Source: Deltaproteobacteria bacterium (lineage in GTDB: Bacteria > Desulfobacterota > BSN033 > UBA1163). Taken from it: a DNA stretch of 34,028 nucleotides. Within the stretch, counting starts at the first letter, position 1. Every line of letters begins with the position of its first letter. Shown here piece by piece: positions 5,539 through 26,227 of the stretch. The notes beneath the pieces were generated by a model. The model saw only the letters and a list, made by a program, of their open reading frames with translations. It ran no database searches and was not told the origin of the DNA. The stretch is from positions 1 through 34,028 of the forward strand of contig JAGXTA010000029.1 in the NCBI GenBank assembly GCA_018333535.1. The letters run 5' to 3'. The translations under genes and the position numbers were made by a program.

Positions 5539-5579
5539 AAAACTAATTCATATGGATAAAGTATGAATTTATAACCTAT
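5529..5579. promoter_or_regulatory. nested inverted repeats over promoter and start codon of Rrf2 gene 1 (probable autoregulatory operator)
   Basis: Two nested dyads are visible. The inner is AATTCATA (5545-5552) with TATGAATT (5562-5569), 8 perfect pairs across 9 bases. The outer is TAGGTTA (5529-5535) with TAACCTA (5572-5578). The motif GAATTTATAACCTAT (5565-5579) within it recurs upstream of the gene at 20543. It runs into the ATG at 5578 and leaves no ribosome-binding site. Rrf2 regulators commonly repress their own genes; that this is the operator is inference. Confidence 0.55.
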
Positions 5580-6021
5580 GAGAATATCAACTAAAATTAG
5601 GTATGGGGCGAGGGCAATGCTCGAGCTTGCTTTCCGTTACGGGGAGGGGCCGATTGATTTGAAAGAGATCGCAAAGAAGGAAGATATCTCTTTGAAATAT
5701 CTCGAACAGGTCATCATTCCGTTAAGAACATCCGGTCTTGTGAAATCGGTTCGTGGTTCAAAGGGAGGATATTCTTTGGCCAAACCGCCTTCCGAAATCT
5801 GTCTCAATGATGTCGTCGAAATCCTGGACGGAACAACCCAACTCATTGAATGCTTAAAAGATCCAAAAGGTTGCAAGAAAGCCCCTTTTTGTGTGACCCG
5901 GGATATCTGGCAGGAAGCTTCTGATGCGATTAATAAAATATTCCGTTCCGTAACCTTTGAAGAGATGGTCAATCGAAAAAAGGAGAAGGAGGGGAAAAAC
6001 CCCCCGATGTACCAGATATAG
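5578..6021 (+). CDS. Rrf2-family transcriptional regulator (CymR/IscR-like), sulfur block 1
   Basis: 147 residues from ATG 5578. The winged helix-turn-helix occupies residues 1-75 (MRISTKIRYGARAMLELA, then SLKYLEQVIIPLRTSGLV and GSKGGYSLAKPP). Cysteines at 92, 99 and 105 match the spacing of the [2Fe-2S]-binding cysteines of IscR (92, 98, 104) closely, with one extra residue. It could therefore sense Fe-S status, or act like CymR, which responds through cysteine synthase. It lies directly upstream of cysK and the homocysteine genes, which supports control of sulfur assimilation. No Shine-Dalgarno sequence precedes the start; the region there is filled by the operator-like repeats. Confidence 0.85.
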   Translation: MRISTKIRYGARAMLELAFRYGEGPIDLKEIAKKEDISLKYLEQVIIPLRTSGLVKSVRGSKGGYSLAKPPSEICLNDVVEILDGTTQLIECLKDPKGCKKAPFCVTRDIWQEASDAINKIFRSVTFEEMVNRKKEKEGKNPPMYQI

Positions 6022-6044
6022 ATTAAAATATTAATTCCGAAGCA

Positions 6045-6080
6045 CCTGCCTGCGCGTAGCCGCTTCGGCGAAGGCAGGCG
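6045..6080. repeat. GC-rich palindromic repeat (CCTGCC...GGCAGG family)
   Basis: CCTGCC (6045-6050) and GGCAGG (6073-6078) flank an inner hairpin, GCCG-CTT-CGGC. Relatives occur at 9220-9239 and 12359-12378, so this is a dispersed family. Confidence 0.65.
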
Positions 6081-6169
6081 AAATCCGAATTAAGATTTTA
6101 GAAATTTAGATATTAGATTCTTACACGTAAAGTCTTAGAATTTATCTCTAACACTGGTCAATGATTCCT

Positions 6170-6245
6170 GTCATTCCCGCGAAGGCGGGAATCCAGAGAA
6201 AACTCCACAAAGAAGATCCTGGATTCCTGCTTCTGCAGGAATGAC
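6170..6245. repeat. dispersed REP-like element, outer arms GTCATTCC...GGAATGAC
   Basis: The 76-base unit begins GTCATTCCCGCGAAGGCGGG and ends GGAATGAC. Each half holds its own small hairpin and each inner edge carries the ATCCAG/CTGGAT pair. Similar units lie at 22386-22467 and, as a half copy, at 33237-33263. The rest of 6022-6308 is AT-rich sequence rich in TTAGAATTT-like words, with no gene visible. Confidence 0.75.
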
Positions 6246-6308
6246 GAAAATTTGATGCCAAAATTTCAAATATTTTTGGTTAGGATTTAGAATTTTAGGA
6301 GACAAGAG

Positions 6309-7241
6309 ATGGTGAGAATAGCTCACTCGATTTCCGAACTGATTGGTCATACACCTTTGTTGAAACTGAAACGAATTACTGAAGGCTCTCAGGGAGAGGT
6401 GGTGGCAAAGCTGGAGTCGTTCAATCCATGCGGCAGCATCAAGGACCGTATCGGCGTGTCGATGATTGATGCAGCAGAGAGAGCCGGACTCATCCGAAAG
6501 GATACGATCATTTTAGAACCCACCAGTGGCAATACAGGGATCGCTCTTGCCTTTGTCTGCGCCTCCAAAGGCTATCCATTGGTTTTAACGATGCCTGATA
6601 CCATGTCAGAAGAAAGAATCCATCTTCTTAAAATTTTTGGAGCTGAGGTCATCCTGACCTCGGGGAATGAAGGAATGACCGGCGCTGTGAGAAAAGCAGA
6701 GGAGATGGCCCGGACAGATTCCCGATATTTTATCCCCCAACAGTTCAGGAATCCTGCCAACCCGGAGATCCATAAAAAGACCACTGCCTTAGAGATCTGG
6801 GAGGACACGGAAGGAAAGATTGATATTCTTGTCGCAGGCGTTGGAACCGGCGGGACCATCACAGGCATCTCAGAAGTCATTAAAAAGAAGAAACCGGAAT
6901 TGAGAACCATTGCTGTAGAGCCGGAAAGCTCTCCCGTGCTCTCCGGAGGAAAACCCGGACCTCACAAAATCCAGGGGATCGGGGCGGGTTTTATCCCGGA
7001 AGTGCTCCGGATGGATCTGGTTGATGAGGTCATCAGGGTATCGAATGAGAACGCAGTGCTATTTACAAAAAGATTGGCAAAGGAAGAGGGTTTGCTTGCC
7101 GGGATCTCATCCGGCGCCGCGGCCTGGGCGGCGATAGAGGTGGCGAAAAGGAAGGAAAACAGGGGAAAGATGATCGTTGTCATCCTTCCTGATACCGGCG
7201 AGCGGTATCTCAGCGCCGGTCTGTATAATGAGCTTAAATAA
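6309..7241 (+). CDS. cysK: cysteine synthase (O-acetylserine sulfhydrylase)
   Basis: 310 residues, the usual CysK length, from ATG 6309 behind AGGAGAC. PLP attaches at Lys45 in [11 protein letters not shown]; the substrate loop is TSGNTG (72-77); [10 protein letters not shown] holds the phosphate of PLP; GISSGAA comes near the end. It makes cysteine from O-acetylserine and sulfide. Like CysK elsewhere, it could also bind a regulator: in Bacillus, CysK partners CymR, an Rrf2 protein, and an Rrf2 gene lies directly upstream here. It probably opens the operon that continues with the homocysteine genes. A second, CysM-like paralogue lies at 25205. Confidence 0.93.
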
Positions 7242-7248
7242 GTTATTC

Positions 7249-7325
7249 GTTCGGAGTTCGTAGTTCGGAGTGAAACCCCAAAAGGCATCAATCTCCGAAC
7301 TCCGAACTGAATTACTCCGAACTGA
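7249..7325. repeat. TTCGGAGTTCG inverted-repeat element
   Basis: Two tandem copies of a GTTCGGAGT-like word face two reverse-complement copies (CTCCGAACTCCGAACT and a further ACTCCGAACT), forming a long hairpin. The same word returns at the 5' end of the larE region (10417-10460). Downstream to 7436 there is a CCCC-GTGA-GGGG hairpin and a run of AATGAAC-like words, then the AGGAGG ribosome site of the next gene. Confidence 0.6.
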
Positions 7326-7436
7326 CCGGAGGTAAGATATGTTATGGATCATGTGTCACCCCGTGAGGGGAACCTAAGAACAAAACAATGAACAATGAAC
7401 GATGAACGATAAACAACTGACAACAGGAGGTAAAAG

Positions 7437-8651
7437 ATGGCGAAGACCATTGAGGAGATAAATGAGAAGATCAGGAGAGGAAAGGCGGTTGTTCTGACGG
7501 CTGAGGAGATTATCGATTATGCCGCTGAAAAGGGAGTCAAGAAGACGGCCCAGGATGTGGATGTCGTGACCACAGGGACATTTGGTCCGATGTGTTCCTC
7601 AGGGGCCTATTTCAACGTGGGGCATTCGAAACCCAGAATTAAACTTGGAGGAGGAAAAACCTATCTCAACGATGTTCCGGTTTATACGGGCCTGGCTGCC
7701 GTTGATTTTTTCCTTGGAGCGACGGCCATGCCTGAAGATGACCCTCGAAACAAAATCTACCCCGGGAAGTTTTCTTACGGCGGAGCCCATATCATCGAAG
7801 AGTTGGTTGCAGGAAAGGATGTCCGGCTTACTGCGACGGCTTATGGAACGGACTGCTATCCGAGAAAATCGTTGGAAACCTACATCTCTCTAAAAGATAT
7901 GAATGAAGCCGTTCTATTCAATATGAGGAATGCCTATCAAAATTATAATGTCGCTGTGAACCTCTCAGACAGGATGATCTATACCTATATGGGAGTCATC
8001 CAGCCCAAACTGGGGAATGCCAATTACTGCAATGCAGGCCAGTTGAGCCCTCTTCTCAATGACCCGTATTACAAAACGATCGGCATCGGCACGCGGATCT
8101 TTCTGGGGGGAGGAGTTGGGTATGTCGTTGGAAGCGGAACACAGCATAACCCTGATGTGAAAAGGACGGAGAAAGGGGTTCCCAAGATGACCTCCGGGAC
8201 ACTTGCGGTCAAAGGGGACTTGAAGATGATGAGTTCGAAATGGCTTAAAGGAACTTCTTACACCGGATATGGGGTGACCCTCACCGTTGGGATTGGCGTT
8301 CCAATCCCCATCCTGAATGAGGAGATTCTCCAATATACGATGATTCGGGATGAAGAGATTTGGGCTCAGGTCATAGACTATAGCGATGCCTATCCCCAGT
8401 TCATCCCGGGAAGTTTGGGAGAGGTCAATTACAAACAACTGAAGAGCGGAAAGATAACCGTTCAAGACAGGGAAGTCCCCACCGCCGGGCTTTCCAGCTA
8501 TCTTAAGGCAGGAGAGATTGCCCGGATCCTGAAAGAATGGATCGAGACAGGAAAGTTCTTTTTAACCCAACCGGTTGAACTTCTCCCTTCGGTCGATTCA
8601 GGGATTGCCTTCAAGTCCTTAAAAGAGAGACCTATCAAAAAACGTCATTGA
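7437..8651 (+). CDS. DUF39 homocysteine biosynthesis protein (sulfide incorporation)
   Basis: 404 residues from ATG 7437 behind ACAGGAGGT. The sequence is typical of the DUF39 family (MA1821 of Methanosarcina). That family makes homocysteine from aspartate semialdehyde and sulfide without O-acyl-homoserine, working with a NIL-domain ferredoxin. GTFGPMCSSGAYFNVGH and YGTDCYPRKS contain conserved cysteines (Cys53, Cys140) that are candidates for carrying sulfur. GGGVGYVVGSGTQHNP and LTVGIGVPIPILNEE are conserved glycine-rich parts. The partner ferredoxin follows directly, as in other organisms. Cytoplasmic. Confidence 0.88.
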   Translation: MAKTIEEINEKIRRGKAVVLTAEEIIDYAAEKGVKKTAQDVDVVTTGTFGPMCSSGAYFNVGHSKPRIKLGGGKTYLNDVPVYTGLAAVDFFLGATAMPEDDPRNKIYPGKFSYGGAHIIEELVAGKDVRLTATAYGTDCYPRKSLETYISLKDMNEAVLFNMRNAYQNYNVAVNLSDRMIYTYMGVIQPKLGNANYCNAGQLSPLLNDPYYKTIGIGTRIFLGGGVGYVVGSGTQHNPDVKRTEKGVPKMTSGTLAVKGDLKMMSSKWLKGTSYTGYGVTLTVGIGVPIPILNEEILQYTMIRDEEIWAQVIDYSDAYPQFIPGSLGEVNYKQLKSGKITVQDREVPTAGLSSYLKAGEIARILKEWIETGKFFLTQPVELLPSVDSGIAFKSLKERPIKKRH

Positions 8652-8652
8652 A

Positions 8653-8745
8653 AATTGCAAATTGTAAATTGCAAATTGAAAATTTTCTCAGGAGCTCACA
8701 TTTTGAATTTTGCATTATTAAATTTACACTTTGCATTGTTTTTTT
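8653..8745. repeat. AT-rich palindromic repeat (AAATTGCAAATTG words)
   Basis: Tandem AAATTGCAAATTGTAAATTG words on the left face related TTTGAATTTTGCATT and TTTACACTTTGCATT words on the right. The intergenic gap can thus fold on itself. Similar word-runs (CAATTAGCAATTAGCAAT) fill 10362-10391. Confidence 0.5.
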
Positions 8746-8760
8746 AGAGAGGAGGTTGCC

Positions 8761-9168
8761 ATGCAGAAGAAACGCGTTGTTTTTAATTATCCATCCCACC
8801 TTGTGGATCAACCTGTGATCTCAAAATTGGTGAAGGATTATGATCTTACGGTCAATATTTTAAGGGCACGAATTACCCCCAAGGAAGAAGGAAGGCTCGT
8901 TCTTGAGATGGAGGGGAAAAGGGCGGCCCTTGAGGCCGGACTCAACTATATGAAAGAGATTGGAGTGGATGTCCAGTCTTTAGCCCAGGACGTAAAATGG
9001 TATGAGGATCGTTGCACCCATTGTACGGCTTGTATTTCCGTCTGTCACCCGCAGGCATTGGACGTCAATAGAAAAACGATGGAGGTCTCCTTCAACCGGG
9101 ACAAGTGCATTGCCTGCGAGCTCTGCATTCCGGTCTGCCCTTATCAGGCGATGGAGATTCTGTTTTAA
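8761..9168 (+). CDS. NIL-domain 2[4Fe-4S] ferredoxin, partner of the DUF39 homocysteine protein
   Basis: 135 residues from ATG 8761, behind GAGGAGGTT; a longer frame from 8731 has no ribosome site. Residues 1-77 are a NIL domain, the ACT-like sulfur-metabolism domain also found in MetN and in the carrier fusion at 21829. Residues 82-135 hold two [4Fe-4S] motifs: Cys 85, 88, 91, 95 and Cys 116, 119, 122, 126. In methanogens its homologue (MA1822) is needed with the DUF39 protein for homocysteine formation, presumably supplying electrons or sulfur. It is adjacent to its partner. Cytoplasmic. Confidence 0.9.
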   Translation: MQKKRVVFNYPSHLVDQPVISKLVKDYDLTVNILRARITPKEEGRLVLEMEGKRAALEAGLNYMKEIGVDVQSLAQDVKWYEDRCTHCTACISVCHPQALDVNRKTMEVSFNRDKCIACELCIPVCPYQAMEILF

Positions 9169-9183
9169 GGTGGTTGATGCATA

Positions 9184-9245
9184 ACCCCCCTTTACCCCCC
9201 TTTAGCAAAGGGGGGGATGCCTGCCTGCCGGCAGGCAGGGGGGGA
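9184..9245. repeat. C-rich hairpin plus perfect 20-base palindrome
   Basis: CCCCCCTTTAGCAAAGGGGGG (about 9195-9215) is followed by the perfect palindrome CCTGCCTGCCGGCAGGCAGG (9220-9239). The first belongs to the CCCCCTTT...AAAGGGGG family also at 12520-12600, 13631-13682 and 29818-29921; the second to the family at 6045 and 12359. Confidence 0.7.
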
Positions 9246-9278
9246 TTTGATTCCGGCAATACAAAGTGAGGAGTTTTT

Positions 9279-10361
9279 TTGAAAAAAAGGGTGGTGGTGG
9301 CGATGAGCGGCGGAGTCGATTCGAGCACTGCGGCCTGGCTTCTCAAGGAGAAGGGCTACGAAGTGATCGGAGCGACGATGTGCATCGGGACACCGGACAG
9401 AAGCGAAACAGGGGCGAACCGGTGTTGCGGTTTTTCGGATATAGAAGATGCGAGACGCGTTGCCCTTCAACTGGAAATCCCCTTTTATGTTTTTCAATTT
9501 AAAGAGGAGTTCGAGAAGGAGATCATCGACTATTTCTGTAAAGAATACAAGGAGGGAAGAACACCCAATCCCTGTATCCTCTGCAATGAAAAGTTGAAGT
9601 TCGGATCATTTTTAGAGAGGGCCATGGAATTGGGGGCGGATTATATAGCCACAGGCCATTATGCACGGCTCGAATTTGATGAGGAGAGCGGCCAGTATTT
9701 ATTAAAGAAAGGAATCGACCGGAAGAAAGACCAGTCCTATGTCTTATTCTCCCTCAGGCAGGATCAGCTCAAGCATACTCTTTTCCCGCTCGGAGAGCTT
9801 CAGAAGGAAGAAGTGAGAAAGATGGCATTTGAGACAGGCCTTCGCGTCCACGACAAACCTGAGAGTCAGGAGGTCTGTTTTATTTCCGAGACCTCTTATC
9901 ACTCTTTTTTGTCCGAGAGGCTAAAAGAGACGATCACAGCCGGTCCCATCCTTGACAGGGAGGGAAATGTCCTCGGAAGGCATAAGGGGATCCCTTTCTA
10001 CACAATCGGACAGAGAAGGGGGCTCCGTCTTGCAAAGGGAAGGCCTCTCTATGTGATCGGAATAGACAGGGAGAAGAATGCCATCCTTGTGGGAGAGGAG
10101 GGGGAAGTCTACGGAAATAGTTTTATTGCTCATTCCCTCAACTGGATTCGACCTCAGGATACGGCCTTCCCAATTTCTTGCAAGGTGAAGATACGGTACA
10201 ACCATCCGGGTGCAGAGGCCGTCCTCTCTTCTACGGGAGAGAATGCAGTGGAAGTGAATCTCAAGATTCCACAGAAGGCCATCACTCCCGGACAGGCCGC
10301 TGTGTTTTATGAAGGAGATACTGTCCTCGGAGGAGGGTGGATCAAGGAAGTGATCAATTAA
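9279..10361 (+). CDS. mnmA: tRNA-specific 2-thiouridylase MnmA
   Basis: 360 residues from TTG 9279, with GTGAGGAG 6 bases before it; no better ATG precedes the PP-loop. MnmA adenylates U34 of tRNAs for Lys, Glu and Gln and inserts sulfur to give 2-thiouridine. PP-loop SGGVDSS is at 10-16. The catalytic Cys102 (ILCNEKLKF) and Cys200 (ESQEVCFIS) correspond to Cys102 and Cys199 of the E. coli enzyme. The C-terminal barrel is complete (GPILDREGNVLGRHKG, YTIGQRRGL). It needs a persulfide donor, which fits this sulfur-rich neighbourhood. Confidence 0.94.
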   Translation: MKKRVVVAMSGGVDSSTAAWLLKEKGYEVIGATMCIGTPDRSETGANRCCGFSDIEDARRVALQLEIPFYVFQFKEEFEKEIIDYFCKEYKEGRTPNPCILCNEKLKFGSFLERAMELGADYIATGHYARLEFDEESGQYLLKKGIDRKKDQSYVLFSLRQDQLKHTLFPLGELQKEEVRKMAFETGLRVHDKPESQEVCFISETSYHSFLSERLKETITAGPILDREGNVLGRHKGIPFYTIGQRRGLRLAKGRPLYVIGIDREKNAILVGEEGEVYGNSFIAHSLNWIRPQDTAFPISCKVKIRYNHPGAEAVLSSTGENAVEVNLKIPQKAITPGQAAVFYEGDTVLGGGWIKEVIN

Positions 10362-10445
10362 CAATGAGCAATTGTCAATTAGCAATTAGCAATGGAAGAT
10401 AGAACAAAAGAGGTTCGGAGTTCGGCCTCTGGCTCGGAGAGAGTG

Positions 10446-11258
10446 ATGAGTTCGGAGTTAAAGAACAAAATTGAAAAACTAAAAGAAATCTTCCAATCCA
10501 TGGGGAAAGTGGTGGTGGCTTTTTCCGGAGGGGTGGATAGCACTTATCTCCTCAGAATGGCCAAGGATACGCTCGGGGTAGAAAATGTCCTTGCGGTGAC
10601 CGCACTCTCTCCTCTCTATCCCGAGAGGGAGTTGAGAGGAGCCAAGAAGATGGCTGAAGAGATGGGAGTGAAGCATCTCTTGATCGAGTCGAATGAGTTG
10701 GAAATCGAGGGGTTCTCAAAGAACCCGCCTGATCGTTGTTACTTCTGCAAAAGGGAGCTCTTCGGAGAGCTGAAAAAACTGGCTGACCGGGAGAGCGCCT
10801 CTCTTGTTGTGGAAGGCTCCACAATGGATGATGAGCAAGATTACAGGCCCGGCAAGAAAGCAGTCAGAGAACTTGGAATACGAAGCCCTCTTATTGAGGC
10901 ATCCTTCACAAAAGCCGATGTGAGGGAAGCTTCGAAGACGCTGGGGCTTCCGACCTGGAATAAGCCGTCGTTCGCCTGCCTTGCCTCTCGCTTTCCCTAC
11001 CGGGAGGAGATCACAGAAGACGGGTTGAGGATGGTCGATGAGGCAGAGGGGTTTTTGATCGGATTGGGGTTTAAACAGGTCCGGGTCCGTCACTATAAAG
11101 ACCTTGCGAGGATCGAGATCTATAAGGAAGAGATTGAAAGGTTCCTGGACGGCACAATCAGAGAGAAAGTGGTCGAACACCTGAAGAAGATCGGTTACCA
11201 GTACATCACCCTGGACCTTCAGGGATTCCGTTCGGGGTCAATGAATGAGGTTTTGTGA
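10446..11258 (+). CDS. larE: LarE, ATP-dependent sulfur insertase for the nickel-pincer cofactor
   Basis: 270 residues from ATG 10446, which follows a GGAGAG ribosome site. The frame opens at 10392, but the first 18 codons run through a TTCGGAGTTCG repeat. LarE is a PP-loop enzyme (SGGVDS 27-32) that adenylates the pyridinium dicarboxylate nucleotide and converts carboxylates to thiocarboxylates. Cys178 in FACLASRFPY is the counterpart of the sacrificial Cys176 of Lactobacillus LarE. Cys98 and Cys101 (DRCYFCK) are additional. Three such cysteines are the pattern of LarE forms that bind a [4Fe-4S] cluster and recycle sulfur; that is inference here. It overlaps the next gene by one base (TGATG). 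Confidence 0.92.
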   Translation: MSSELKNKIEKLKEIFQSMGKVVVAFSGGVDSTYLLRMAKDTLGVENVLAVTALSPLYPERELRGAKKMAEEMGVKHLLIESNELEIEGFSKNPPDRCYFCKRELFGELKKLADRESASLVVEGSTMDDEQDYRPGKKAVRELGIRSPLIEASFTKADVREASKTLGLPTWNKPSFACLASRFPYREEITEDGLRMVDEAEGFLIGLGFKQVRVRHYKDLARIEIYKEEIERFLDGTIREKVVEHLKKIGYQYITLDLQGFRSGSMNEVL

Positions 11259-12262
11259 TGAAGGCGATTGCCCTCCTCTCCGGAGGTCTTGACAGCACGC
11301 TTGCCGCCAGACTGGTTCTTGACCAGGGGATTGAGCTGGAGGCCCTCAATTTTATGACGGTCTTCTGCACCTGCACCAACCGGGGAGCGACCTGCCTGGC
11401 TTCTCAGAAGGCAGTGGAGACACTGGGCATTTCCCTTAAGGTCTTCAATGTCTCCGAAGAATATCTCAATGTCATAAGAAATCCGAAACACGGATACGGA
11501 AGCAACATGAATCCCTGCATCGATTGCCGGATCTTCATGCTGAAGAAGGCAAAGGCTTATATGGAGGAATCGGGCGCTGCATTTGTTGTGACGGGTGAGG
11601 TTCTGGGGCAGAGGCCCATGTCTCAGAGAAGGGATGCGATGCGATTGATCGAGAAGGAGGCTGGACTGGAGGGGTTAATTCTACGCCCCCTCTCAGCTCA
11701 ATTCCTTCCCATTACCCTTCCGGAGAAAGAAGGCTGGATTGATCGTGATAAACTGTTAAATATTCAGGGCCGATCAAGAAAACCGCAGATGAGATTGGCA
11801 GAGCAGTTCAATATCCGCGACTATCCCTGCCCTGCAGGAGGATGTCTTCTCACTGATCCGGGCTTTGCTTTAAGGTTGAAGGATCTGATGGCCCATAACC
11901 TTGATTTTTCATTGAACGATGTCCATCTTTTAAAAATAGGGAGACATTTTCGTCTTTCTCCGAAAGTCAAAGTGGTGGTCGGGAGGAATGAGGAGGATAA
12001 TCAGAAGATCGAAACTTTTTCTCAGGCAGGAGATGTCCTCTTGAAGACAGTCGGCTATCCCGGCCCTGTTTCTCTTCTGAGGGGAGAAGCCGATGGAACG
12101 GAGATGGAGAAAGCGGCCTCCATTACAGCCCGCTATAGCAAGGCGAAGGGAATGGAGAAGATGGAAGTTCACTACCAGGAGGTGGGGAGAGAGGAAGAGA
12201 AGTCGATATTTGTCTCTCCCCTTTCTGAAGCGGAGATTCAGAAAGAAAGAACCTCTGAATAA
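11258..12262 (+). CDS. ThiI-like PP-loop protein with NFACT-R/DUF814-like C-terminus
   Basis: 334 residues from ATG 11258, which overlaps the larE stop (TGATG). A GTG at 11255 is a less likely start. The N-terminal PP-loop reads LLSGGLDSTLAARLV. It carries cysteine groups FCTCTNRGATC and NPCIDC plus YPCPAGGCLLTDPGFALRLKD, the signature of a family often labelled ThiI-like or tRNA thiouridylase. The last 100 residues (KVVVGRNEEDNQKIETFSQ onward) resemble the RNA-binding NFACT-R domain. The role is probably tRNA sulfur transfer, 4-thiouridine or similar, but no family member is well characterised to my knowledge. The coupling to larE suggests a shared sulfur source. Confidence 0.75.
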   Translation: MKAIALLSGGLDSTLAARLVLDQGIELEALNFMTVFCTCTNRGATCLASQKAVETLGISLKVFNVSEEYLNVIRNPKHGYGSNMNPCIDCRIFMLKKAKAYMEESGAAFVVTGEVLGQRPMSQRRDAMRLIEKEAGLEGLILRPLSAQFLPITLPEKEGWIDRDKLLNIQGRSRKPQMRLAEQFNIRDYPCPAGGCLLTDPGFALRLKDLMAHNLDFSLNDVHLLKIGRHFRLSPKVKVVVGRNEEDNQKIETFSQAGDVLLKTVGYPGPVSLLRGEADGTEMEKAASITARYSKAKGMEKMEVHYQEVGREEEKSIFVSPLSEAEIQKERTSE

Positions 12263-17935: not shown

Positions 17936-17989
17936 GTCTAATCGTTTTATAGTTGACTATATGACGATGTGACTATCAGACGATTAGAC
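17936..17989. repeat. inverted repeat GTCTAATCG / CGATTAGAC
   Basis: GTCTAATCG (17936-17944) and CGATTAGAC (17981-17989) are perfect reverse complements, with further GACTAT-type words between. The right arm overlaps the last codon region of arsS. Confidence 0.5.
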
Positions 17990-18939
17990 TATTGAGTCAT
18001 TGGACTACTTAAAACTCCTGTGCAACTGGATCCCTGGCCTGCGGTGCAGCCGTAACAGTGGTCCAGGAGCGGGATAGGGTTTCCCTTCAGATCAATCCCC
18101 TTCAATTCGGAGAGATGGACCCGCGACCTTCCTTCCAGCAGGAGGGGAAGGCCGAGCGCCTGATTGAAATCGCAATCATAGACATAACCCTGATAGTCCA
18201 CGCTGATAAGCCTCCGGCACATCACGGATTCGAGATTCCCGTCCTGATGTGCCCCCTGGAGAAGATTCATATACCTTAAACGCTCGCCCCTCGCCGTCAA
18301 TAGTGTTTCAAAACGATGGATGGGCATATTGGTGATGGTATAGAGATGGTTGAAGACAATGCCATACCGCTCTCCCAGTTCTCTCCTGTAATCCTCTTCC
18401 AAGAGGGTTTGGGGAGAAGGAAGAAAAGAACCCAGCGGATTATAGACCAAATTGAGGGGGAGTCCCGAATCTTTTTGGCCATAACCCAGCTGATTGAGCT
18501 TTCTTAAGGCACTGAGACTGGCCTCGAAAACGCCATTGCCCCGTTGATGGTCAACATTCTCTTTCAGGTAACAGGGCAGGGAGGCGATGATCTCCACCTT
18601 CTGATCGGCGAGAAATTCTTCCAATCCCTCCATTCCGGATTCCTCGAGGACGGTAAGATTACAGCGATCAATGACATGGATACCCATCGCACGGGCAGAA
18701 CGGATGAGGTGTCTGAAGTGAGGGTTCAATTCCGGAGCACCACCGGTTAGATCGAGCTGACGGAGATTCGATGAGGCAAGGAAAGCAATCACCTGATCGA
18801 TGGCGGCGCGATCCATCATCTCCATCCTTTCAGGACCGGCATTGACATGGCAGTGGATGCACCTCTGATTACACCGGTAGCCAAGGTTCGCCTGTAAAAT
18901 TTCAAGACAGGTTCGTCTGATCACTGGGAAACCGGTCAT
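17989..18939 (-). CDS. arsS: ArsS-type radical SAM protein (TIGR04167)
   Basis: 316 residues from ATG 18939 behind AAGGAGAT, one base after the TVP38 stop. The radical SAM [4Fe-4S] motif is CNQRCIHC (Cys 23, 27, 30). The C-terminal Cys-rich end HCYGCTAGQGSSC (Cys 295, 298, 306) is the signature of the ArsS/rSAM-Cys-rich family. ArsS joins a 5'-deoxyadenosyl group to dimethylarsenite to start arsenosugar synthesis. Family members exist in which one of these Cys is selenocysteine; here all are cysteine and the gene ends in TAG. The arsenite methyltransferase ArsM, needed for the pathway, is not in this window. Confidence 0.88.
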   Translation of the reverse strand: MTGFPVIRRTCLEILQANLGYRCNQRCIHCHVNAGPERMEMMDRAAIDQVIAFLASSNLRQLDLTGGAPELNPHFRHLIRSARAMGIHVIDRCNLTVLEESGMEGLEEFLADQKVEIIASLPCYLKENVDHQRGNGVFEASLSALRKLNQLGYGQKDSGLPLNLVYNPLGSFLPSPQTLLEEDYRRELGERYGIVFNHLYTITNMPIHRFETLLTARGERLRYMNLLQGAHQDGNLESVMCRRLISVDYQGYVYDCDFNQALGLPLLLEGRSRVHLSELKGIDLKGNPIPLLDHCYGCTAGQGSSCTGVLSSPMTQ

Positions 18940-19854: not shown

Positions 19855-20319
19855 ATGAGGTTATCTACACAGAGTCGTTATGGAGTAAGGGCTATTTTTG
19901 ATATTGCTTATCATTCCGAGGGGTTAGACACGCAGGTTAAAGACATTTCAAGACGGGAAGGAATCTCTCCGAGGTATATAGAACAGATATTTCAGAAGTT
20001 AAAAAAGGGAGGAATCATTGGCAGCAAGAGAGGTCCATCAGGGGGATACTTTTTAAGCAAGAAGCCCGAGGAAATCACTGTGGGAGAAATTGTTCGGATT
20101 ACCGAAGGGGGCATCAACCCCGTACTCTGCGTTAGCCCAGAGGATTCAAGCAAGCCCTGCGAGAAGTCAGGAGAGTGTGTTACGCAGATCGTTTGGAATG
20201 AAGCAGGAACCAGGCTCAAGGAATATTTTGATTCAATAACGATCAGGGATCTCTGCAAGATGGCCAAAGAGATGGGATTAAAGAAAGAGTTAGATAAAAG
20301 ATTTATGTACTACATCTGA
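19855..20319 (+). CDS. Rrf2-family transcriptional regulator, sulfur block 2
   Basis: 154 residues from ATG 19855. Winged helix-turn-helix at 1-75 (MRLSTQSRYGVRAIFDIA, SPRYIEQIFQKLKKGGIIGS, GPSGGYFLSKKP). Cysteines 92, 102 and 108 could hold an Fe-S cluster, but the spacing (9 and 5 between) differs from IscR and from the first Rrf2 protein (6 and 5). It stands directly ahead of the threonine-synthase-like/sulfur-carrier operon, which it probably controls. It is a paralogue, not a copy, of the gene at 5578. Confidence 0.85.
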   Translation: MRLSTQSRYGVRAIFDIAYHSEGLDTQVKDISRREGISPRYIEQIFQKLKKGGIIGSKRGPSGGYFLSKKPEEITVGEIVRITEGGINPVLCVSPEDSSKPCEKSGECVTQIVWNEAGTRLKEYFDSITIRDLCKMAKEMGLKKELDKRFMYYI

Positions 20320-20542: not shown

Positions 20543-21811
20543 ATGAGTTATATAAAAGGTTTAAAATGCAGGGAATGCAGAAGGGAGTATTCGATCAAGC
20601 CGGTTCATGTTTGTGAATTCTGCTTTGGTCCCTTAGAAGTTGTTTATGATTATGAAGAGATCAAAAAGAGTGTGACACGTGCGAAGATTGAGGGAAGGCC
20701 AAAGACGATGTGGCGGTATAGAGATCTTCTGCCTTTGGATTCTGATCCCGCCGTAGGAAGAAATGTCGGATTTACTCCGCTCATAAAAGCAGAGAGGCTG
20801 GCGGAAGTCCTGGGTGTGAAGGAGCTCTACCTGAAGAATGATGCAGTCAATCATCCGACTCTCTCGTTTAAGGACAGGGTCGTCTCTGTTGCGGTTTCAA
20901 AAGCCAAAGAGTTTGGATTCGAGGTTGTCGCCTGCGCTTCGACAGGAAATCTTGCCAACTCAGTGGCTGCCCTGGCTGCTGAGGGAGGTCTGGATAGCTT
21001 CATCTTTATCCCTCATGATCTGGAAAAGGGGAAGATCCTGGGGACATTGATCTACGGGACGAACCTGATCGGAATCACAGGAAGCTATGATGAGGTCAAC
21101 CGGCTCTGCAGTGAGATTGCCGAGAATTATAGATGGGCCTTTGTCAACATCAACCTCCGTCCTTTTTATGCGGAGGGGTCGAAGACCTTCGGATATGAGA
21201 TTGCAGAACAGATGGGGTGGAGGACGCCCCGGCATGTGATTGTCCCGATGGCCGGAGGGTCGCTCATCACAAAGATCTGGAAAGGGTTCAAAGAGCTGGA
21301 ACTGATCGGCCTGCTTGATGGAGTCGATAGTAAAATCTATGGGGCTCAGGCATCAGGATCGAATCCCATCGTGGCTGCTTTTAAAGAAGGGATCGACTGG
21401 ATTAAGCCCCAGCGGCCTAAAACCATTGCCAAATCTCTGGCCATTGGGAACCCCGCGGATGGTTTCTATGCGCTGAAAACAATCCGGGAGTCCGGAGGGG
21501 CGGCCGAAGATGTGTCGGATGAGGAGATTGTGGAAGCCATGAAACTCCTGGCCCGGACAGAAGGAATCTTCACGGAGACAGCCGGCGGAGTGACGGTCGG
21601 AGTGACGAAGAAATTGATCGATCAAGGAATCATTCCAAGAGATGAATCCATTCTCATCTCAATCACAGGCAATGGCCTGAAAACCCAGGAAGCGATTCAG
21701 GATAGGGTTGGCCGGCCCCTGATTATTGAGGCGAAGTTCTCGGAGTTTGAGAAAACCGTAACTCCGAATCAGAGGAAGTATCGAGAATCAATCGTTCAGG
21801 CAACGCTTTAA
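20543..21811 (+). CDS. thrC: threonine synthase-like PLP enzyme with zinc ribbon
   Basis: 422 residues from ATG 20543 behind AAAGGTGAG. The N-terminal zinc ribbon has Cys 9, 12, 24, 27. PLP Lys110 is in HPTLSFKDRV, followed by ACASTGNLANSVAALAAEGG and VPMAGGSLITKIWKGF. The closest family is threonine synthase (O-phosphohomoserine to threonine). Its place as first gene of a sulfur-carrier operon raises the option that it accepts a sulfur nucleophile instead of water, giving homocysteine, but no residue shows this. The gene symbol reflects sequence family, not a proven reaction. Confidence 0.85.
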   Translation: MSYIKGLKCRECRREYSIKPVHVCEFCFGPLEVVYDYEEIKKSVTRAKIEGRPKTMWRYRDLLPLDSDPAVGRNVGFTPLIKAERLAEVLGVKELYLKNDAVNHPTLSFKDRVVSVAVSKAKEFGFEVVACASTGNLANSVAALAAEGGLDSFIFIPHDLEKGKILGTLIYGTNLIGITGSYDEVNRLCSEIAENYRWAFVNINLRPFYAEGSKTFGYEIAEQMGWRTPRHVIVPMAGGSLITKIWKGFKELELIGLLDGVDSKIYGAQASGSNPIVAAFKEGIDWIKPQRPKTIAKSLAIGNPADGFYALKTIRESGGAAEDVSDEEIVEAMKLLARTEGIFTETAGGVTVGVTKKLIDQGIIPRDESILISITGNGLKTQEAIQDRVGRPLIIEAKFSEFEKTVTPNQRKYRESIVQATL

Positions 21812-21828: not shown

Positions 21829-22344
21829 ATGGACATTCGAGTCAGAATACCGACGCCGCTGAAAAAGCTGGCCGGGGAACAGGATATTGTCTTAGCAAAT
21901 GGGAATACAGTTGGAGAGGTGATCCAGTGGCTCACTGAAACCTATCCAGGGCTTAAGGAAAGGCTCAGGGATGAGAAGGGAGAGGTGAGGCGCTTCATCA
22001 ATATCTATGTGAACGATGAAGATATCCGGTTTGTCCGGAACCTCGAAACTCCTGTAAAAGACGGGGATCAGATCTCAATCATTCCAGCCATTGCCGGAGG
22101 CTCATCCAAGAAAAGAAGGGTGACCCTGACCTTTCCTCAGGAAAGGATTCAGGAACCGGTGATCTATAATATCGGCCACCAGTTTAAGATTGTCACCAAC
22201 ATTCGAAGCGCCAATGTCACGGAGAATGTCGGCTGGGTGACACTTGAGATTGACGGAGAGGAGGGGGAATATTTGAAGGCCCTCGACTATTTGAAGAAAA
22301 TCGGAGTAAAAGCAGAACCGGTGGAGAAGGACGTGATTGTGTAG
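21829..22344 (+). CDS. sulfur carrier (MoaD/ThiS fold) fused to a NIL domain
   Basis: 171 residues from ATG 21829 behind ATAGGAGGA. Residues 1-91 form a ubiquitin-like MoaD/ThiS domain (VRIPTPLKKLAG, FINIYVNDEDIRF, VKDGDQISIIPAIAGG). Gly90-Gly91 are where a free-standing carrier would end and be thiocarboxylated. Here the chain continues, SSKKRR, into a NIL domain (97-171), as in the ferredoxin at 8761. A carrier with internal Gly-Gly needs proteolysis to be active; a JAMM protease is encoded at 24754. Cytoplasmic. Confidence 0.85.
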   Translation: MDIRVRIPTPLKKLAGEQDIVLANGNTVGEVIQWLTETYPGLKERLRDEKGEVRRFINIYVNDEDIRFVRNLETPVKDGDQISIIPAIAGGSSKKRRVTLTFPQERIQEPVIYNIGHQFKIVTNIRSANVTENVGWVTLEIDGEEGEYLKALDYLKKIGVKAEPVEKDVIV

Positions 22345-22514: not shown

Positions 22515-23738
22515 ATGGGTGCAAAGGTGAAACAGTTATTCTGGAAAGTGGCTGGGCCGCTCCTCCGAAGAGCTTTAAAAGAGAAACATAAGGACGTCTC
22601 TGAATTATCCATTCAGGAGGTTAACCAACTTCTTAAAAGGGGAGAGAGCATAGTCCTCCTCGATGTCCGTGAGAAGGAGGAATTGGCCCTGGGATACCTC
22701 AAAGGATCTCTGTTTGTTCCTCGGGCCAGCCTGCCGGAGAAAGCAGAGACCCTGCTTCCAGATAAAGAGGCTTCTATTGTCGTTTACTGTGCGGCAGGGG
22801 TGCGGTCCATCCTCGCAGCCAAGACTTTGCGGGAAATGGGCTACAAACAGGTTGCCTCCATGAGAGAAGGGATTGAGGGGTGGAAAAAGGCGGGATATGA
22901 AGTCTCCAGCCAAACAGGGCTGACCTCCGAACAGCTCACCCGGTACAGCCGCCATATCCTCCTGCAGGAAGTTGGGGCAGAAGGGCAGGCCCAACTCCTG
23001 AAAGCAAAAGTCCTTCTGGTAGGCGCAGGCGGCCTGGGCTGTCCGATAGGTCTCTATCTGGCAGCCGCAGGGGTTGGAACATTAGGTATTATCGATGATG
23101 ACCGTGTGGATCTGACCAATCTCCAGCGGCAAATCCTGCACCGGACTTCTGATGTGGGAAGGCCAAAGGTCGAATCGGCAAAAGAAGCCATCGCAAGGAT
23201 CAATCCGGACGTAAAGGTGGTTACCTACCAGGAGCGCCTCACCTCGGAAAATGCGATTAAGATATTTGAAGATTATGACATCATTGTGGACGGGTCGGAT
23301 AACTTCCCGACGAAGTACCTGGTCAACGATGCGGCCTTCTTTACGGGAAAACCCTTTGTTTTTGGCGGAGTGTTTCAGTTTGAAGGGCAGGCGAGCGTCT
23401 TTGCCCCAAAAGAGGGAGGCCCCTGTTTACGGTGCCTCTTTCCCGAGCCTCCTCCACCCGGGCTTGTCCCCAGCTGAGACGAGGCAGGTGTCCTGGGAGT
23501 TGTGCCCGGGCAAGTTGGTTTGATTCAGGCTACAGAGGCGATCAAGCTTATTTTGAAAATTGGGAAACCTTTGATCGGCCAGTTCTTTATCTATAACGCG
23601 CTCGACGTGGAATTCAAACTCTTTCCGGTCAAGAAGAATCCGTCATGTCCCCTCTGCAATGGGGAGCCAAAGATTAAGGAGCTGGCGGATTATCATGAGG
23701 CGTGCGGTCTGGAGACAAGAAGTCAAGCAACGATTTAG
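22515..23738 (+). CDS. selenoprotein: N-terminal rhodanese fused to MoeB/ThiF-type E1-like enzyme (in-frame UGA 23475-23477)
   Basis: 407 residues if UGA is read as selenocysteine at residue 321. Start ATG 22515 follows GGGGGAACGAG. Residues 27-130 form a rhodanese with Cys92 (VVYCAAGVRS). From 137 the protein is MoeB/ThiF: ATP loop GAGGLG (170-175), NLQRQILH, DNFPTKYLVND, zinc Cys304/307 (CLRC). The frame continues after the UGA as DEAGVLGVVPGQVGLIQATE and reaches the second zinc pair CPLC. The family reads PSC-AEAGVLG at this place; the UGA replaces exactly that conserved Cys (Cys187 of E. coli MoeB, Cys184 of ThiF). It should adenylate the carrier and pass sulfur to it. Confidence 0.85.
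23489..23512 (+). promoter_or_regulatory. candidate SECIS element of the MoeB selenoprotein
   Basis: CCTGGG (23492-23497) pairs with CCCGGG (23505-23510) around the loop AGTTGTG. TG (23489-23490) and CA (23511-23512) lengthen the stem, with T23491 bulged. The stem core begins 14 bases and the loop 20 bases after the UGA, in the normal bacterial range. Confidence 0.55.
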
Positions 23739-23767: not shown

Positions 23768-24745
23768 ATGGAACGAGTCAAGCATCATTTAAAAAGATTA
23801 GTGGGAGGTTTAACTTTACTCCTCGTCACAGTTTTTATTCTTCTCATGTCAAGCCAAATTACGATGGCGATTCCAAACGGAGGATATACGCGACCCGAAC
23901 TTCTGATTCAGCCTGAAGACCTTAAGGTATTGATCGACAAGAAAGACACCGATATCCGGATCATCGATGTCCGGGAAAAGATCAAATATCTTGCCGGTCA
24001 TATTCCGGGAGCCGTGAATATCTGGAGACCCGATATCGTGGATAAGGACCATCCCACCCCAGGGATGGTGGCTCCTCAGGCCCAGGTCGAAGAGCTGATG
24101 GGAAGACTTGGAATCAGCCATCGAAATACGCTCATCATCTATTCCGACGGCGCTGATGGCGCCAGGCTCTGGTGGATATTAGCTTACTATGGTTTTCCCA
24201 TCCGGCAGTTGAAGCTTCTTGACGGCAGTCTTGATGGCTGGAAGGCAAAGGGTTACCCGACCGAGATGATTTCACCTCAGATCAGTCAGACTCAATTCAA
24301 GCTTCCGGGAAAGACGAAATCGATGGAACCTCTGCTCTGCACTTTGCCGGAAGTCAGGGGTGCCTTGAAAGAACCCAAGAAGGTCGTTCTCGATGTCCGG
24401 GCAAGCAAAGAGTATCTTGGAGAGGAGACCCTTGCGGGTGCGGTCAAACCGGGACGCATTCCCGGAGTGAAGTGGATTGAGTGGAGGGAAGTTCTAATAA
24501 AGGAGGGACCCAATAAGGGATACTGGAAATCCGCCGAGGAGATAAGGAAACTCTTTGCTGATTTAGGGGTGACTCCGGATAAGGAAATCTATATCTACTG
24601 ACAGTCCGGGGTGCGCTCGACTCACAGTTTGGTGAGTCTCTATCTGATCGGTTTTCCACTCGAGAAGTTGAGAAATTATGATGGTTCCTGGATCGAATGG
24701 AGTCGGAGTACAGAGGCCATTGAAACAGGGCCACCGAAGAATTAG
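23768..24745 (+). CDS. selenoprotein: exported two-domain rhodanese (in-frame UGA 24599-24601)
   Basis: 325 residues from ATG 23768 with selenocysteine at 278. The start is preferred over 23702 because it gives a proper signal sequence (residues 1-35, LVGGLTLLLVTVFILLMSSQ) and follows AAGGAAG. Domain 1 (45-165) carries YSDGADGAR where an active rhodanese has Cys, so it is the structural half. Domain 2 (190-320) should have the active-site loop YCQSGVRSTH; the DNA encodes Y-UGA-QSGVRSTH. The frame then continues normally (LVSLYLIGFPLEKLRNYDGS) to TAG at 24743. It probably works in the periplasm or membrane as a sulfurtransferase. Confidence 0.85.
24619..24638 (+). promoter_or_regulatory. candidate SECIS element of the rhodanese selenoprotein
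   Basis: GACTCAC (24619-24625) and GTGAGTC (24632-24638) form seven perfect pairs around AGTTTG. The stem begins 17 bases after the UGA. The loop opens AGTT, as in the MoeB hairpin. Confidence 0.6.
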
Positions 24746-24753
24746 AGCAGAAG

Positions 24754-25149
24754 ATGATAAAAATCCCAAAATCGATCTATCGCACCATCATTGAACATGC
24801 CCGGAGAGAGGCGCCCCTGGAATGTTGCGGCATTCTTGGAGGAAGAGAAGGAGCTGTTGAGAAGGCTTTTGATCTCTCCAATACGGAAAGGAGTCAGGTT
24901 CGATATTCGATGTCGCCCCAGGAGCAGTTGAAGGCTTTTGAGGAGATGGACAGGGAATCGCTGGAGATGGTGGCCATCTACCATTCCCATACGCATACGA
25001 TCTCGTTTCCATCAGAGACCGATGTAAAGCTGGCCTTTTATCCTGAGGTGGCATCGGTCATCATCTCTCTGAAAGAGGAGACGCCGGTTGTAAAGGCCTT
25101 TCGGATCAAGGAGGATGCGATCTATTCCGAAGAGATCGAGGTAATCTAA
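24754..25149 (+). CDS. JAMM/MPN+ metalloprotease (Mec-like)
   Basis: 131 residues from ATG 24754, eight bases after the rhodanese stop. The zinc-protease motif is complete: Glu23 (PLECCGIL), His77 and His79 (YHSHTH), Ser87 and Asp90 (SETD), spaced HxH-x7-SxxD. Mec of actinobacteria cleaves cysteine from its adduct with the carrier CysO; HcyD and QbsD have related roles. Its neighbours here are a carrier and a CysM-like enzyme, the same set as CysO-CysM-Mec. It may also cut the carrier-NIL fusion after Gly-Gly. Cytoplasmic. Confidence 0.9.
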   Translation: MIKIPKSIYRTIIEHARREAPLECCGILGGREGAVEKAFDLSNTERSQVRYSMSPQEQLKAFEEMDRESLEMVAIYHSHTHTISFPSETDVKLAFYPEVASVIISLKEETPVVKAFRIKEDAIYSEEIEVI

Positions 25150-25204: not shown

Positions 25205-26227
25205 TTGGAAATGCCTATGGAAGCCATTCAAATAAGAGATGAAATTGAATCACGAAGGGAGTTGAGAAAGGAGAAACCTCTCTCTTTGCTCACTTCGATC
25301 GGCAATACGCCCCTGATTCAGATTCGGCAGTTGACAAATCACATCGGAGGGGTTCAGATCTTTGCCAAGGCAGAGTGGCTCAATCCCGGTGGCTCTGTAA
25401 AGGACCGCGCAGGTCGAAAGATCATCGAAGATGGGGAAAAATCTGGTCAACTCACAAAGGAGAAGATCATTCTCGATTCCACATCGGGCAACACAGGAAT
25501 TGCTTATGCAATGATCGGTGCCATCAAGGGATACAGGGTGGAACTGGTCGTGCCGGCCAATATCAGCGAGGAAAGAAAGAAAGCCCTGGAGGCCTATGGG
25601 GTAAAACTGATCTACACGGACCCGGTCCTGGGGTCAGATGGCGCACTTGTCGAAGCAAAGAGGATTTATGAGGCCAATCCGTGCCTCTATTTTAAGGCGG
25701 ATCAATATAATAATCCCGCAAACTGGAAGGCTCACTATGAGACCACAGGAATTGAGATTCTTCAACAGACCGGATGGAAAGTGACCCACTTTGTTGCAGG
25801 CGTGGGGACAGGTGGAACGTTGATCGGAACAGGCAGAAGATTGAGAGAGTTTAATCCTGACATTAAACTATTTGGTGTTCAGCCGGACAGCGGCTTTCAT
25901 GGAATAGAGGGGTTGAAGCATATCGAAACCGCCATCCGGCCGGGCATTTATGATGAAACCATCTTGAATGGTACGTTTTTTGTGAAGACAGAAGACGCCT
26001 TTGGAATGGCGAACCGTCTTACCAGGGAAGAAGGGCTATGGGTAGGTCCTTCTTCGGGCGCTGCTTTCTGGGCATCCTTAAAGTTGGCAGAGTCGGTGTC
26101 CCAAGGCGTGATTGTAACAATATTTCCGGATGGAGGAGCACGATATCCTGAGTATTGTATTGATTGCGAGAAACAGAAGAAACGGCTCTCAGTTGAACAT
26201 CTACCGCTAAGACCTTCACCCCCCTAA
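25205..26227 (+). CDS. cysM: CysM-like cysteine synthase
   Basis: 340 residues from TTG 25205; an ATG two codons on is also possible. PLP Lys66 in NPGGSVKDRAG, TSGNTG (93-98), GVGTGGTLIG and GPSSGAA are all intact. The form fits the CysM/OPS-sulfhydrylase side of the family, and the neighbouring carrier and JAMM protease match the CysO route. The gene is distinct from cysK (6309). The C-terminus adds EYCIDCEKQKKRL, with two further cysteines, and its last codons overlap the structured RNA element at 26183. I infer that it accepts carrier-thiocarboxylate sulfur. Confidence 0.85.
   Translation: MEMPMEAIQIRDEIESRRELRKEKPLSLLTSIGNTPLIQIRQLTNHIGGVQIFAKAEWLNPGGSVKDRAGRKIIEDGEKSGQLTKEKIILDSTSGNTGIAYAMIGAIKGYRVELVVPANISEERKKALEAYGVKLIYTDPVLGSDGALVEAKRIYEANPCLYFKADQYNNPANWKAHYETTGIEILQQTGWKVTHFVAGVGTGGTLIGTGRRLREFNPDIKLFGVQPDSGFHGIEGLKHIETAIRPGIYDETILNGTFFVKTEDAFGMANRLTREEGLWVGPSSGAAFWASLKLAESVSQGVIVTIFPDGGARYPEYCIDCEKQKKRLSVEHLPLRPSPP

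Follow-up and report, generated by a model that had tools for sequence, protein, structure and literature searches.

The gene at positions 23768 to 24745 of the window, the whole 34,028-nucleotide stretch of deltaproteobacterial DNA analysed here, encodes a two-domain rhodanese in which an in-frame UGA occupies the codon of the active-loop nucleophile, and the sequence evidence indicates that this UGA is almost certainly decoded as selenocysteine (Sec) by SelA, SelB, SelC and SelD via a downstream SECIS hairpin. The adjacent gene, a rhodanese-MoeB fusion, is predicted to encode a second selenoprotein; Sec forms of both families have already been predicted, and the occurrence of the two side by side in a conserved sulfur-assimilation operon seems not to have been reported before. 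The operon and the elements of the two genes comprise:

19855 to 20319, + strand: Rrf2-family regulator (IscR/CymR-like)
20543 to 21811, + strand: threonine-synthase-like PLP enzyme (ThrC-like)
21829 to 22344, + strand: ThiS/MoaD-type sulfur carrier with an internal ...AIAGG, fused to a NIL domain
22515 to 23738, + strand: rhodanese-MoeB/ThiF (E1-like) fusion, predicted second selenoprotein, whose own rhodanese domain keeps Cys92
23475 to 23477, + strand: in-frame UGA of the fusion, predicted Sec321, on the position of the crossover-loop Cys in the E1 domain (Cys202 in Uba4), by orthologue alignment
23492 to 23510, + strand: SECIS-like hairpin of the fusion gene, CCTGGG-AGTTGTG-CCCGGG, loop 20 nt past the UGA
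23768 to 24745, + strand: predicted Sec-containing two-domain rhodanese (COG2897/SseA type), by Pfam, profile alignment and fold match
23768 to 23869, + strand: probable signal peptide of the rhodanese, MERVKHHLKRL..LLLVTVFILLMSSQITMA/IPNGG, the cleavage site (slash) placed by eye
24599 to 24601, + strand: in-frame UGA of the rhodanese, predicted Sec278, active-loop nucleophile, by translation and orthologue alignment
24619 to 24638, + strand: SECIS-like hairpin of the rhodanese gene, GACTCAC-AGTTTG-GTGAGTC, loop beginning 24 nt past the UGA
24754 to 25149, + strand: JAMM (Prok-JAB, desampylase-like) protease
25205 to 26227, + strand: cysteine synthase B (CysM)-like PLP enzyme

Translation of the rhodanese gene with TGA read as Sec yields a 325-residue product, from ATG to TAG, with a single UGA at residue 278 in the context ...DKEIYIY-U-QSGVRSTH..., followed by 39 residues and the TAG at 24743-24745, which confirms the Tyr-UGA-QSGVRSTH reading and the 39 in-frame residues claimed in an earlier note on this DNA. 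A Pfam search finds PF00581 twice in the product, and a full-length alignment of a profile built from the gene and its relatives places residue 278 on the catalytic Cys of solved two-domain rhodaneses, e.g. 1uar, in agreement with the active-loop position assigned in that note. The equivalent loop of the first domain reads YSDGADG, with Asp and without Cys, as expected of the inactive half that had likewise been proposed; on this alignment residue 278 is therefore the only active-loop nucleophile of the enzyme. The product displays the two features of two-domain rhodaneses, namely (i) an inactive first domain and (ii) a six-residue active loop in the second, and an AlphaFold2 model with Cys at 278 (mean pLDDT 79, pTM 0.77) matches 1uar (E 5e-19, TM 0.72/0.84), and also bovine rhodanese and E. 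coli SseA. It scores below the curated cut-offs for 3-mercaptopyruvate sulfurtransferase (PRK11493, NF008557; 106.7 bits against 250) and for the rhodanese_LYCAU (seleno)protein (NF041203; 29.2 bits against 115), the motif here being UxxG (U-Q-S-G) whereas that of NF041203 is CxU. The N-terminus comprises a positively charged start, a hydrophobic stretch and TMA/IP, with A-I/V-P-x-GGY conserved across orthologues and residues 2-29 forming a helix in the AlphaFold2 model; the rhodanese is probably exported via a cleavable signal peptide.

Homologue alignment, suggested in the earlier note as a check, displays UGA or Cys at codon 278. Eight rhodanese orthologues occur in the order (68-100% identical, the window's own gene counted), six with UGA and two, L028 and L031, with TGT; more distant homologues, their active-site residues taken from tblastn alignments, carry Cys, encoded by TGC in L066 and L076. 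The fusion gene also contains a single UGA by translation, at 23475-23477, and this codon is UGA in 11/11 rhodanese-MoeB orthologues of the family. In both sets the UGA is held at the exact codon despite dS > 1, and dN/dS amounts to 0.085 downstream of the UGA versus 0.108 upstream in the rhodanese, and to 0.128 downstream versus 0.081 upstream in MoeB. Retention at the exact codon at such divergence, together with purifying selection downstream, is not a matter of chance and upholds the earlier argument that two adjacent UGAs at Cys codons are no coincidence of pseudogenes. UGA-interrupted reading frames in draft genomes are often errors, and the source genome, G000, is metagenome-assembled (4.39 Mb, 192 contigs, 97.2% complete, 3.3% contamination). 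Nevertheless, a pseudogene pair or an assembly or sequencing error, with the UGAs as lesions or miscalled TGC/TGT, is so improbable as to be negligible, given that the rhodanese UGA recurs at the same codon in six separate species-level assemblies and the MoeB UGA in eleven, with no other breaks, and that dN/dS near 0.1 past the UGA speaks against lesions. In another family, the homologues L072-L075 (50-56% identity) carry Ser or Gly where the catalytic residue should be, and Cys191 is missing from them too; for these two reasons they look like dead enzymes that have been kept.

The protein tree places the TGT gene L028 as sister to a UGA gene, nested in the UGA clade with support of 99/98, and L028 retains a weakened hairpin (-7.2 kcal/mol); on both grounds it is most simply read as a Sec-to-Cys change leaving a relic SECIS, a kind of change of which there are few in bacteria (PMC1794560). 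The other TGT gene, L031, is placed beside L030 with weak support (77/73), and the MoeB tree requires two Sec/Cys changes by parsimony. Sec and Cys versions of one rhodanese thus occur naturally within the genus, one of them with an apparently decaying SECIS, making the question of why cells pay for selenium in sulfur transfer directly testable.

The Sec machinery, the other check named in the earlier note, is present in the same assembly, comprising a tRNA-Sec (76.5 bits, anticodon tca) and profile matches for SelA (627 bits), SelB (368 bits) and SelD (391 bits), the SelD gene itself containing an in-frame UGA as well as a strong hairpin. Among the genomes of the order, SelA is found in 17/17 and SelB in 16/17, the one lacking SelB being 88% complete. 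UGA is the ordinary stop of 8/29 other genes in the window, and the code is therefore not altered wholesale. This bears on the alternative that UGA is simply read through, or is read as Trp, Gly or Cys under a suppressor or an altered code: genomes using NCBI codes 4 and 25 likewise show in-frame UGA in conserved genes, but besides its use as a stop here, UGA falls only at Cys positions in the rhodanese and MoeB genes, where relatives have Cys, and the Sec machinery is there along with a SECIS-like hairpin, so that such decoding is very improbable. On the sequence evidence, pseudogenes, sequencing error and another amino acid at the UGA are effectively excluded.

The bacterial SECIS model comprises a loop of 3-9 nt, a stem of 4-16 bp, a spacing of 16-37 nt and an MFE <= -7.5, with a G at loop position 1 or 2 that is often succeeded by G or U (PMC13188914). 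An Rfam scan gave no match to an RNA family anywhere in the window, and the hairpins were therefore judged by this published structural model and by synonymous shuffles. The rhodanese hairpin, GACUCAC-AGUUUG-GUGAGUC, begins 17 nt past the UGA and agrees with the model throughout, displaying a 6-nt loop starting A-G-U, a 7-bp stem, a spacing of 24 nt and an energy of -9.4 kcal/mol alone (-12.4 for 48 nt). Synonymous recoding with local codon usage (1000 trials per gene) equalled the observed hairpin in 0 to 2/1000 trials for each UGA orthologue, and the same analysis found no such hairpin in the TGT orthologue L031. In addition, within the first 14 codons after the rhodanese UGA, the fraction of same-residue pairs with identical codons is 0.838 among UGA genes versus 0.588 gene-wide, and 0.388 between UGA and TGT genes versus 0.454 gene-wide. 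The MoeB hairpin, CCUGGG-AGUUGUG-CCCGGG, also fits the bacterial model and is not significant alone, 103 to 178/1000 synonymous shuffles being as good; nowhere in the gene are codons more frozen than around the MoeB UGA (top window of 393), and this is better evidence for MoeB than the hairpin. Ranked by MFE alone among each gene's codon windows, the 45 nt past the UGA came out mildly low (0.08 to 0.31 for UGA genes), and this ranking was set aside as evidence.

The UGA of the fusion aligns with Cys202 of Uba4, the crossover-loop Cys that forms a thioester with Urm1 (PMC7527816), and with Lys in the C202K chain of Uba4 (6yuc). The fusion shares with the Uba4/MOCS3-Urm1 relay (PMC7527816, PMC5372717) a rhodanese and an E1 domain on one chain as well as the crossover-loop Cys position, but differs in that the rhodanese domain comes first, the order being reversed, and Sec would replace the crossover Cys. 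A UGA at this codon is also found in rhodanese-MoeB genes from five genomes of another family, plus L083, the remaining homologues checked having Cys at the crossover position. The L083 fusion (G050:C67) contains two in-frame UGAs, one for the Cys of the rhodanese domain and one for the crossover Cys of the E1 domain, making it a candidate double selenoprotein with both relay residues as Sec. The Sec-MoeB genes of the other family adjoin MetX- and MetW-like genes (L080, L089, named from translations) or CysK (L091), and the context in L080 and L089 suggests methionine/homocysteine synthesis.

The gene order is Rrf2, ThrC-like, ThiS-NIL, MoeB-U, rhodanese, JAMM and CysM, and around the rhodanese it is identical at 8/8 orthologues, as far as contigs extend: (i) the whole Rrf2-to-CysM set is present in the window, L061, L063, L064 and L065; (ii) the ThrC-to-CysM stretch is complete in G008 (L029, L048) and G011 (L031, L049); and (iii) L062 runs from ThrC to JAMM, where the contig ends. 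Because the sister genera g3 and g4 have the Sec-MoeB operon without the rhodanese, L053 running from MoeB to JAMM to CysM, the rhodanese probably joined a pre-existing operon as an add-on rather than as a required partner. Since the carrier domain ends in AIAGG ahead of the NIL domain, the JAMM protease may need to cut the ThiS-NIL carrier, releasing its Gly-Gly end before use. A clustered sulfur carrier, E1, JAMM protease and PLP synthase are shared with the CysO-CysM-Mec+ cysteine synthesis of Mycobacterium and the thiocarboxylate-dependent methionine synthesis of Wolinella; the operon described here, unlike these, displays a NIL-fused carrier, an extra ThrC-like enzyme, a probably exported Sec rhodanese and a predicted Sec E1.

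The rhodanese is rather likely to supply sulfane sulfur to the carrier pathway of the operon for cysteine or homocysteine, and the explanation as a whole, Sec decoding together with sulfur supply, is held with good confidence as a compromise between its two parts. Beyond the cytoplasmic membrane, the exported enzyme would draw sulfane sulfur from thiosulfate or polysulfide and hold it on Sec278 as a selenenyl sulfide (E-Se-S-), in keeping with rhodanese chemistry, in which a persulfide forms on the loop Cys (PMC5372717). The sulfur thus mobilised would be taken up into the cytoplasmic carrier system, where the Sec-containing rhodanese-MoeB fusion would load the ThiS-like carrier as a thiocarboxylate, to be used for making cysteine or homocysteine by the JAMM protease together with CysM, the ThrC-like enzyme or both. 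As the E1 and the carrier are expected in the cytoplasm and the rhodanese is probably exported, direct sulfur transfer between them would require a membrane step; we infer the export, the substrate, the membrane crossing of the sulfur and the identity of the amino acid produced. A precedent is E. coli PspE, a periplasmic rhodanese, which converts thiosulfate to cellular sulfane sulfur (PMC10215317) but is a single-domain enzyme with a Cys active site and without a sulfur-carrier operon.

The main rival to sulfur supply arises from a second conserved residue. The claim that the UGA replaces the only catalytic residue holds for the active-loop nucleophile, but with Cys191 (codon 24338-24340) kept in 8/8 orthologues with a Sec/Cys active site, U278 is not the sole redox-capable residue of the protein, and Cys191 is a possible resolving residue. 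The rhodanese could be a true selenoprotein of oxidoreductase type, in which Sec278 and Cys191 pair as a selenenyl sulfide and act on persulfides, selenite or peroxides. The absence of Cys191 from the four homologues with Ser or Gly at the active site is consistent with such a pair, as is the view that most predicted selenoproteins are redox proteins (PMC9312934). Distant homologues with an active-site Cys, L066 and L076, however, have no Cys191, the operon belongs to sulfur assimilation rather than redox defence, and the match to the ExtH selenite/tellurite rhodanese (NF040901), which would favour this role, is weak at 81.6 bits and stays below the curated cut-off of 200, so that a redox role is unlikely. 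Returning to sulfur supply, we tentatively entertain a dedicated selenium-dependent sulfur relay, in which the exported rhodanese and the carrier-loading E1 would both use Sec as the sulfur-carrying or resolving nucleophile in one cysteine/homocysteine operon, with Sec/Cys exchange at the rhodanese among species of one genus.

A Sec COG2897 rhodanese (3 sequences) and a Sec MoeB (11) were predicted from the Sargasso Sea in 2005 (PMC1088965), reported again in 2008 (PMC2398784), and included in the 2022 (PMC9312934) and 2026 (PMC13188914) catalogues, the latter naming a 'rhodanese-like form 4, UxxG' (PMC13188914). The rhodanese described here shares with the catalogued COG2897 (SseA) form the two-domain family, the UxxG Sec motif and a downstream bacterial SECIS, the catalogued form being a metagenome listing without operon context, likened to MCY3690685.1 by description only. 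It differs in occurring in deltaproteobacterial (Thermodesulfobacteriota) genomes, in its signal-peptide-like start and in its sulfur-carrier operon beside a Sec-MoeB. Similarly, the fusion shares with the Sec MoeB (COG0476) of the Sargasso Sea and GOS sets (PMC1088965, PMC2398784), to which it is likened by family, an E1-like adenylyltransferase with UGA for a Cys, but displays an N-terminal rhodanese domain and is paired with the ThiS-NIL carrier, JAMM and CysM. The MoeB-rhodanese pair is absent from the selenoprotein-operon section of the 2026 catalogue (PMC13188914), and no report of a Sec-MoeB/Sec-rhodanese operon was found in the open-access literature, an earlier report elsewhere being possible. 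The operon places two selenoprotein families, hitherto recorded almost solely as entries in predicted-gene lists, in a genomic setting and links both to sulfur-carrier (thiocarboxylate) chemistry, a pathway hidden when annotation takes UGA as a stop and truncates both genes.

Elsewhere in the window, positions 5578-12262 comprise a second sulfur cluster with Rrf2, CysK-like, HcyBio (homocysteine synthesis), NIL-ferredoxin, MnmA, PP-loop and ThiI-like genes. In addition, positions 17989-18939 on the - strand encode an ArsS-type radical SAM protein (TIGR04167) in the Cys form, without UGA, from a family in which Sec members are known.
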